This document shows positions 33,261-35,059 of a stretch of 64,000 nt of DNA, in pieces. The stretch is from the NCBI GenBank assembly GCA_021806235.1, contig JAJZXU010000024.1:1-64000 (forward strand). The letters are read 5' to 3'. The position numbers and the translations under genes are program-made. This DNA is from Thermoplasmata archaeon. GTDB lineage: Archaea; Thermoplasmatota; Thermoplasmata; Thermoplasmatales; Thermoplasmataceae. Under the pieces are notes generated by a model that saw nothing but the letters and a program-made list of their open reading frames with translations, was not told the DNA's origin and searched no databases. Each line of letters starts with the position of its first letter. The first letter of the stretch is position 1.

Positions 33261-34390
33261 TGAGATTTTTGCATTTATCGGATACACATCTTGGTTACCG
33301 TGAATATATGATGGAACTGCGTGAAAATGATTTCTACGAATCCTTCAATGAGGCAATTGACATCGGCCTGGATGAAAATGTTGATTTCTTCGTTCATACC
33401 GGTGATTTATTCGATACATGGTCCCCATCCAACAAAGCCCTGAACGAATTTAAAAAGGCAATGATTAAATTATACAGTAAAAATAAAACAATGTATCTGA
33501 TTATGGGAGACCATGACAGGCCAAAAAGAAGTGATGAAATTGCTTCAAGGATCTTTGATTTCCTCGGTGTAAAATTGTTGGGCATTAATGAGATACAGAA
33601 CATAATATTAAATTATGGCAATGAGGATTTATTATTATCCGGTTTATCCAATATGAAGGGGCTCAGGAAAAATAATATTGTTAACGAGTACAGAAAAGGC
33701 GATATCGAGGCAAAAAATTATAAGAATTCAATTTTAATGTCGCATCAGGGTGTATCGCCATACCTGATTCCGGAGGCATGTGAGGTGGACTCAAAGGATC
33801 TGCCGGTTAATTATACCTATCTGGCATTCGGGCATATACACGACTCATATTTAATTGACGACAGGCAGCCCGTATTTTCATATGCCGGTTCAACGGATCT
33901 GAACAGCACAAACGAAATAAAAAATTATTTAAGAAACAAAAAATCGGTAAATCTTGTTGAAATCAGCAATGGAAAACTCAATGCCGAAAGAATTAAATTA
34001 AAATCAACGAGATATCAGAATGTAATAAATTCGGATTATAATAATTATTTAAGCGATGTTAATGAAATTATCAGTAAAAAAATGGATAATGACAAATCAC
34101 CATTACTGTCAGTAACAATACATGGCGATGCCGATAAAGATGATGTTAAAAATAACCTAAAAAAATTAGATAATATAATCATACGTGGTCCGGTATTTGA
34201 AAAAGAAATCAAAACAGTAATAGAAAAACCGAATATGTCTAAACTACTGGATTACTTCAACGCATATTTCAATGATAATGATATGGCAAATCTGGCAAAT
34301 ACAATATATGATACCATTAAAAATGAGGATATTGATAGTTCGTATGAGTTAATTAGGGGTATAATGATAAAGTCAGCTACCCACGACTAA
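33257..34390 (+). CDS. mre11: Mre11 nuclease (C-terminus altered by insertion)
   Basis: Calcineurin-like phosphoesterase of the Rad50-Mre11 repair complex. Metal motifs: DTH (9-11), GDLFD (49-53), GDHD (84-87; the usual form is GNHD), SHQG (162-165) and GHIH (192-195). The final residues (SATHD) and the stop come from the left end of the inserted element at 34376, so the native tail has been replaced. In the same frame, the end of the element's own ORF (GALEATR and stop) overlaps rad50, suggesting the original Mre11 frame once ended there. Confidence 0.9.
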   Translation: MMRFLHLSDTHLGYREYMMELRENDFYESFNEAIDIGLDENVDFFVHTGDLFDTWSPSNKALNEFKKAMIKLYSKNKTMYLIMGDHDRPKRSDEIASRIFDFLGVKLLGINEIQNIILNYGNEDLLLSGLSNMKGLRKNNIVNEYRKGDIEAKNYKNSILMSHQGVSPYLIPEACEVDSKDLPVNYTYLAFGHIHDSYLIDDRQPVFSYAGSTDLNSTNEIKNYLRNKKSVNLVEISNGKLNAERIKLKSTRYQNVINSDYNNYLSDVNEIISKKMDNDKSPLLSVTIHGDADKDDVKNNLKKLDNIIIRGPVFEKEIKTVIEKPNMSKLLDYFNAYFNDNDMANLANTIYDTIKNEDIDSSYELIRGIMIKSATHD

Positions 34391-34639
34391 AGGTGTGGGC
34401 CTGTCCCGTGAGGGCAACGAAAGAGTTGATTAGGGGGCTTTGAAAATATGAAAAACATAAAGGAAAAGCAGAAGTTAGGAAAGAGAGATACATACACACC
34501 CACGGGTGTTCCACAAGCCCGTGGCAACTGTGGCCATGCATTAAACAGAGAGGGGAGTCCAGGCGTACAGGGTTTAAAAACCTCTTCTAACAACCCCGGT
34601 GTGGGCCTACCCCGGCCAGCAGGGGGGCTTAAAGCCGAT
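34376..34639 (+). ncRNA. Probable IscB omegaRNA region
   Basis: In IscB systems the guide RNA lies directly upstream of iscB. This 264-bp stretch is GC-rich, full of short inverted repeats (for example CCCAC/GTGGG at its start), shows no coding constraint, and sits just before the IscB N terminus. Its sequence translates only into a spurious 5' extension of the IscB frame. The guide would come from the bases immediately left of the element, i.e. the mre11 end. Confidence 0.6.
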
Positions 34640-35046
34640 TTGCTGGTTTTTATTTTAAATAAAGATGGAAAACCCCTGATACCGTGCAAACCCGCAAAAG
34701 CAAAACATCCTCTTAAGGAAAAGAAAACTAAGGTTATTCAGAGAACACCACTATTTACTGTTTCTCAGAGAAGAAGGAACAACCGCTGCCTGCAGCTGAA
34801 CGGAAAGGGCTTTAAGCCTTCGATAAGAAGGAAGAGATACGGCTTCCAGCCAGGAGATACTGTTCTCTTTCAGAAAAGGGAGTGGAACGTATTGGGAACA
34901 CATAGTTATGGTAAAAGTGTGATTATTAAAAAAGGTGAAAAAAGGATGGATGCAAATGTAAGAAGGGTAAAGCTAAGAAGGTATGGCAAGGGGTTGAAAT
35001 TTAATATTCAATTCCTTCCACCCCCGAAGGGATGGGGAGCCCTGGA
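34376..35046 (+). mobile_element. IscB-type IS200/IS605 element relic inside the repair operon
   Basis: About 670 bp of foreign sequence, GC-richer than its surroundings, separate mre11 from rad50. The left part begins with a hairpin (CCCAC 34380-34384 / GTGGG 34395-34399) and further stem-forming segments; the right part holds the two ends of an IscB protein. A palindromic right end (CCACCCCCGAAGGGATGGGG, about 35018-35037) closes it. Exact ends cannot be set without an empty site. Confidence 0.8.
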
Positions 35047-35059
35047 GGCGACCAGATGA
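34640..35059 (+). pseudogene. IscB derivative lacking RuvC and HNH (PLMP domain joined to C-terminal domain)
   Basis: The N terminus matches the IscB PLMP domain (LNKDGKPLIPCKPAKAK, TKVIQRTP), but after RTP it jumps to the C-terminal IscB segment (SQRRRNNRCLQLN, GFKPSIRRKRYGFQPGD, VLGTHSYGKSV). RuvC, bridge helix and HNH are all missing, so no nuclease can be made, although RNA and TAM-binding parts might remain. The frame is still open for ~139 codons from TTG 34640. It overlaps rad50 by ATGA. A longer frame from ATG 34448 runs through the RNA region and is not the likely start. Confidence 0.8.

Follow-up and report, generated by a model that had tools for sequence, protein, structure and literature searches.

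The 64,000-nucleotide stretch of contig JAJZXU010000024.1 analysed here, hereafter the window (positions 1 to 64,000, forward strand; assembly GCA_021806235.1), comes from a Thermoplasmata archaeon of the Thermoplasmataceae. Between its mre11 and rad50 genes lies a 684-bp element that is, to near certainty by sequence comparison, an internally deleted, non-autonomous IscB transposon of the HEARO/OMEGA type inserted at the rad50 start codon. Landing at start codons together with an element-borne ribosome-binding site is a well-supported feature of this archaeal family, as judged from the sequences flanking its copies. The best explanation overall, to which we assign a probability of about 0.75, is that insertion would occur at start codons through an RTGA target-adjacent motif (TAM), that translation would be handed over to the host gene and that the guide would be transcribed from a host promoter.

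The element at the mre11-rad50 junction

The element occupies positions 34372..35055 of the plus strand. It was delimited against an exact empty site in the closest relative (L045), from which it differs by a clean insertion without target duplication, and these ends correct the otherwise near-exact coordinates of the initial annotation. The empty site reads mre11...GATAAA/ATGATAAT...rad50 and the junction of the two genes ...GAGTTAATTAGAGGTATAATGATAAA/ATGATAATACAG..., the slash marking where the 684 bp stand in the window; the Rad50 amino terminus of this relative is 96% identical to that of the window. The insert is absent from eight congeners, which disposes of the possibility, raised initially, that all relatives carry the same sequence between mre11 and rad50. 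Because the two genes are directly adjacent in the congeners read, the window copy is, on this comparison, a lineage-specific insertion.

At the left end (34372..34390, +) mre11 extends five codons into the element (IMIK/SATHD), confirming that its product ends in element-derived residues. Read in the mre11 frame, G TCA GCT ACC CAC GAC TAA gives the tail SATHD and a new TAA stop at 34388-34390. The same frame and stop recur in the insertion between nuoA and nuoB (L003) and in that of L008. At the right end a GGAGG motif (35044..35048, +), the predicted Shine-Dalgarno (SD) sequence for rad50, is placed 7 nt upstream of the ATG at 35056, where the initial annotation had already seen it. The element ends at 35055 and the true start of rad50 is therefore 35056, not 35032 as its longest open reading frame (ORF) would suggest. 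The frame of the element closes with GCG ACC AGA TGA, whose TGA is part of the ATGA (35056..35059, +) opening rad50; this tetranucleotide holds both the rad50 start codon and the stop of the element ORF and would also be the TAM. In the empty site the ATGA doubles as the mre11 stop.

Subterminal hairpins are found at both ends, as in non-autonomous elements of the IS200/IS605 type. The left one, CCCACGACTAAAGGTGTGGG (34380..34399, +), is near-identical to a hairpin ending the resident tnpA/tnpB elements, and the right one, CCACCCCCGAAGGGATGGGGA (35018..35038, +), is kept among right ends. Clean insertion, another property of such elements, is documented by six insertions of the window genome that have exact empty sites in congeners (rad50, nuoB, rpoB, leuS, a thiamine pyrophosphate (TPP) enzyme and a coiled-coil gene). 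The non-autonomous character proposed at the outset is upheld.

Insertion in front of host start codons

Right ends of the family were located by a profile at 48 distinct places in the window genome and its relatives, the profile having been seeded with 13 of these copies chosen with RTGA. In 45 of the 48 the end is directly followed by RTGA (ATGA in 43, GTGA in two). The RTG is the start of a long or recognisable host gene in 41 of the 44 readable right ends (93%). The target genes, named from their translations, include rad50, nuoB, NAD kinase and a DHH-family gene (the last three in two species each), and also rpoB, rpoK, hisS, leuS, ileS, purE, the TPP enzyme and others. As a background, ORFs of at least 100 codons are opened by 166 of the 1201 RTGA in the window and by 26 of the 174 that are intergenic (15%). 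The excess at start codons has a probability of about 1e-30 in a binomial test and 5.5e-23 in Fisher's test, and it stays far beyond chance with the about 36 distinct target sites left after removal of orthologous or near-identical copies. A GGAGG- or GGGGG-like motif is present at start-codon distance in 43 of the 48 right ends.

ATGA is reportedly the TAM of at least one IscB, and the original description of HEARO is said to remark on ATGA/GTGA. Searches of the available literature retrieved no description of start-codon insertion by IscB elements. The TAM of the relative IsrB is of the NTGA type (NTGA/ATGA) (PMC9581776). Placement at start codons, the ribosome-binding site carried by the element and the shared stop/start had escaped the initial annotation.

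The omegaRNA and its predicted guide

The omegaRNA expected upstream of the protein remnant is readily detected by its covariance model. HEARO (RF02033) covers 34372..34610 of the plus strand end to end with 89.4 bits (E 5e-18; cmscan, Rfam), above the gathering score of 83. HEARO is now known as the IscB omegaRNA. Minimum-free-energy folding by itself was uninformative and revealed no special structure (z = -0.09). The scaffold precedes an ORF with IscB remnants, a guide position is available in the 5' flank and a TAM in the 3' flank, the empty site having the mre11 flank followed by ATGA; this is the architecture of OMEGA systems. The guide of the window omegaRNA is predicted to be the 3' end of mre11 at 34352..34371 (+), directly 5' of HEARO position 1, with a length set by analogy. 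In L045 this stretch differs by one mismatch and then runs directly into ATGA. A guide taken from mre11, as suggested initially, fits this arrangement at the level of architecture.

The ORF of the element (34448..35059, +; 203 codons) crosses both the omegaRNA and the remnants of IscB and ends on the TGA of ATGA. A GGGGG at 34433..34437 (+) might conceivably serve as its SD; GGGGG or GGAGG stands before the element ORF at a like position in most copies. The core coding stretch of the omegaRNA is a multiple of three in all 24 copies compared, with length variants of +6, +12 and +21; a stop inside it occurs in just one of the 24. ORFs spanning the omegaRNA are found also in full-length copies of other archaeal families. 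In the window family the start of IscB may lie within the guide RNA of the protein, which would make the omegaRNA a coding sequence in frame with IscB.

The truncated protein

The translated ORF matches PF14239 (RRXRR) with 30.1 bits (cut-off 25) and the first 43 positions of the NCBIfam model guided_IscB (NF040563) with 32 bits, far under the cut-off of 175 bits for a whole IscB. Alignment with four IscBs, each full-length or nearly so, reveals residues 1-34 (PLMP) joined straight to residue 309 onward. The PLMP remnant of about 34 residues (34646..34747, +; PF14239 positions 1-46) is fused to the carboxyl-terminal region (34748..35056, +; residues 309-413 of the full protein), which holds the WED/TI part, the domain names being assigned by analogy to PMC9640706 and PMC9581776. 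RuvC-I, RuvC-II, the bridge helix and HNH are absent, leaving less than the full domain set of an IscB. The relic recognised initially, PLMP joined to the carboxyl-terminal domain with RuvC and HNH gone, is thereby upheld by both profiles and by the alignment. Its full-length parent groups with IscBs such as OgeuIscB when compared in sequence with proteins of solved structure.

RNA-guided cleavage is not expected of the window copy, since its catalytic domains are absent. In IscB the RNA is held by the bridge helix, WED and RuvC (PMC9640706), and in IsrB RuvC-TI-PLMP forms one pivotal scaffold in which deletion of PLMP abolishes activity (PMC9581776). Any RNA-guided function is doubtful because the bridge helix, RuvC and the REC linker are missing: the 203-codon product, left with part of PLMP and the carboxyl-terminal region, probably does not assemble into a complex with guide and target, and the truncated protein itself is most likely without RNA-guided function. 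Structure prediction of the 203-residue product was uninformative, its mean predicted local distance difference test (pLDDT) score of 36 being matched by 35 for a control, the full-length IscB of the window genome, with an equally shallow alignment.

The ratio of non-synonymous to synonymous substitution rates (dN/dS) among copies is low, 0.10-0.32. As evidence that selection acted after truncation it was rejected, because L001 and L003 have the same deletion point without being sisters in the trees and because the deletion may be recurrent, as a short repeat (ACAACACC) on its PLMP side suggests.

Copies of the family and resident transposases

The 1.93-Mb genome of the window has ten HEARO matches, seven of them above the gathering score. 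It codes for one full-length IscB frame (L006, contig 31), whose 481 codons keep GIDPG, HNH and THAND motifs that look intact; this IscB, of the kind that the initial annotation had expected elsewhere in the genome, is apparently intact. About a dozen other copies are present, most of them internally deleted; the deletions in those with readable ends lie at differing points. The right-end search adds further copies in this genome and in relatives, and some members of the family keep no IscB domain.

The relative G060 carries a full-length IscB frame (L019) with a shortened PLMP and a change of GIDPG to GIGPG in RuvC-I, a nearly intact protein that is probably disabled. The omegaRNAs of deleted copies in that genome score lower (74.7 and 64.4 bits). 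The start of one DHH-family gene is occupied in two species (L008 and L029) by copies that differ in their internal deletions (1037 and 452 bp), which indicates that deletion can occur in place after insertion. In an archaeal IscB group of more remote kinship (L062, L067) the right end reads ...GGTGATAAA and no RTGA follows, which suggests that this group uses another TAM.

Nine Y1_Tnp matches were found in the window genome, and those read lie within ordinary IS605-type elements. The resident tnpA/tnpB elements (L035-L043) feature a right-end hairpin, CCCACGGCTTTAGTCGTGGG, whose reverse complement comes close to the left end of HEARO. This is a hint that the two kinds of element share a TnpA, despite their different target flanks (TTAT(CAC) for the resident elements vs TCAY for the HEARO elements).

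Fit into operons and retention of an open frame

The upstream co-directional gene abuts the element in eight of the 16 start-site insertions with a readable left flank, its stop being located -2 to +47 nt from the left end. The idea that every left end supplies a stop in the ATGA frame was considered and discarded: such a stop is present in the window genome and in some relatives, not in all subfamilies. About 13 of 23 deletion events leave a single frame open between the ATG in the omegaRNA and the right end (p about 0.02 against an expectation of 1/3), which hints at selection for a bridge that can be read through.

Three relics of the relative G061 (L121, L118 and L122) measure 194-284 bp and consist of little more than the two ends and an open frame. 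They precede the start codons of long ORFs; their omegaRNA is incomplete and no IscB domain is left.

Persistence at start codons and alternative explanations

Beyond the flanking motif, the insertion site, the SD and the stop/start overlap, all read directly in the DNA, a series of functional steps can be proposed. An RTGA TAM would make start codons, and above all the ATGA stop/start overlaps of operons, natural landing sites. Landing itself seems to follow RTGA and not a start-site signal, as one copy (L025; relative G004, contig 74) lies within a gene resembling that of an FMN reductase, at an ATGA that is out of frame. The guide, being outside the element, would need a host promoter reading in from the left, and insertion between such a promoter and the start codon would guarantee its transcription. 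The element would pass the ribosome from the upstream gene via its own ORF to the downstream start, allowing host expression to survive; on this reading the family is adapted to harmless residence in operons. Copies at start sites would then persist because the host promoter upstream transcribes the guide, and because the SD and an ORF ending on the host start keep the host gene translated. Internal deletion would remove the nuclease, while the remaining omegaRNA could load into an intact IscB in trans; this IscB would cut the empty allele and so hold the copy in place.

A wider proposal builds on these steps and is given an even chance. The ends and the ORF of an IscB family whose TAM doubles as host start codon would have evolved into a translational bridge, made of a left-end stop for the upstream gene, a coding omegaRNA, a right-end SD and a stop overlapping the host start. 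Its copies would do no harm in operons some of whose genes are probably essential and would obtain their guides from borrowed host promoters. Selection for the bridge would outlast both nuclease and guide RNA.

Several observations weigh against insertion at start codons with translational hand-over. The left-end stop is missing from some subfamilies, and the IscB elements L062 and L067 do not end at RTGA. The RTGA count is not fully blind, given its 13 seeds, although RTGA also follows 32 of the 35 right ends outside the seed. The significance of frame retention is mild: the frame is broken in about 10 of the 23 deletion events, and part of the retention could be due to recent age. The intragenic position of L025 means that start-site placement would be selected, not obligatory.

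This last copy also speaks for a simpler account, in which IscB inserts at any RTGA, intragenic copies are lost and those near starts survive by chance as plain decaying relics; GGAGG and the shared stop would be incidental and the open frame merely young. The frame-broken deletion events agree with it, as does a low dN/dS inherited from active parents and not datable after truncation. Avoidance of genes alone, however, predicts about 15% of survivors at starts against the 93% found, nearly all right ends have the SD-like motif at the spacing of a start codon, and relics stripped of all functional parts are still read through in frame. This account is rather unlikely. Somewhat better placed, if still tentative, is the idea that the copy is kept chiefly for an omegaRNA serving an intact IscB elsewhere, a form of trans retention or drive in which translation effects would be secondary. 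The window genome combines an intact IscB frame with its ten HEARO matches, and G060, whose IscB has GIGPG, has the lower-scoring RNAs in its deleted copies. The comparison rests on few genomes, and G061 keeps many tiny copies without most of the omegaRNA, only an IscB fragment having been found there.

Most improbable is the function put forward in the initial annotation, a nuclease-free, RNA-guided DNA binder, TldR-like in spirit, in which the PLMP and carboxyl-terminal protein would bind its own omegaRNA and regulate the repair operon. The open 203-codon frame, the well-conserved omegaRNA, the conserved carboxyl-terminal region and low pairwise dN/dS would suit such a role. The protein, however, has about 34 PLMP residues left and is devoid of the bridge helix, RuvC and REC linker, and the scaffold pivotal to IsrB is thus broken (PMC9581776). 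The deletion falls elsewhere in other copies, which stand before unrelated genes, and the eight congeners do without the insert. Nothing ties the element to DNA repair, since its type sits before many unrelated genes in variously deleted copies. Insertion at start codons with translational hand-over is the reading retained below.

Relation to known systems and significance

The element shares with IscB/HEARO OMEGA systems (RF02033, PF14239, NF040563) an omegaRNA 5' of the ORF, a left-flank guide, PLMP and carboxyl-terminal TAM-interacting parts and a 3' RTGA. It departs from them in the loss of RuvC-I/II, the bridge helix and HNH and in a frame that crosses the omegaRNA, while members of its family carry an SD and are located at the start codons of host genes. 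IsrB, the RuvC-only relative, likewise has an NTGA-type TAM and a natural loss of a nuclease domain, but it is an active nickase keeping RuvC and the bridge helix (PMC9581776), whereas the window copy is without both nuclease domains. Non-autonomous IS200/IS605-type derivatives, similar to miniature inverted-repeat (MITE) or palindrome-associated (PATE) transposable elements, also keep both ends around a deleted interior, with subterminal hairpins resembling those of resident tnpA/tnpB elements; in the window family the ends would in addition provide host genes with a stop, an SD and a start/stop bridge.

In TldRs the scaffold for RNA guidance is retained, and the window protein differs from them in having lost the RNA-guided core (RuvC and bridge helix missing). 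No conserved association with a target gene, as known for TldRs, was found at mre11-rad50, the insert being absent from the eight congeners. The likeness lies in descent: TldRs, nuclease-dead TnpB homologues that act as RNA-guided transcription factors (PMC13418256), and the window protein are both nuclease-free descendants of an RNA-guided transposon protein. IStrons are made harmless to the host gene at the RNA level, by splicing out (PMC4227781); the window element would instead stay in the mRNA and re-start translation.

Such elements can shift the apparent starts and tails of genes, a warning for annotation. RNA-guided transposons occupy start codons in archaeal operons that encode RNA polymerase, complex I, tRNA synthetases and Mre11-Rad50. 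The arrangement offers a simple reason for the NTGA/RTGA form of IscB-type TAMs, which would steer insertion to start codons and ATGA junctions, where the host would transcribe the transposon and the transposon would stay harmless. TAM recognition, a molecular constraint, would in this way be linked to the ecology of the transposon.
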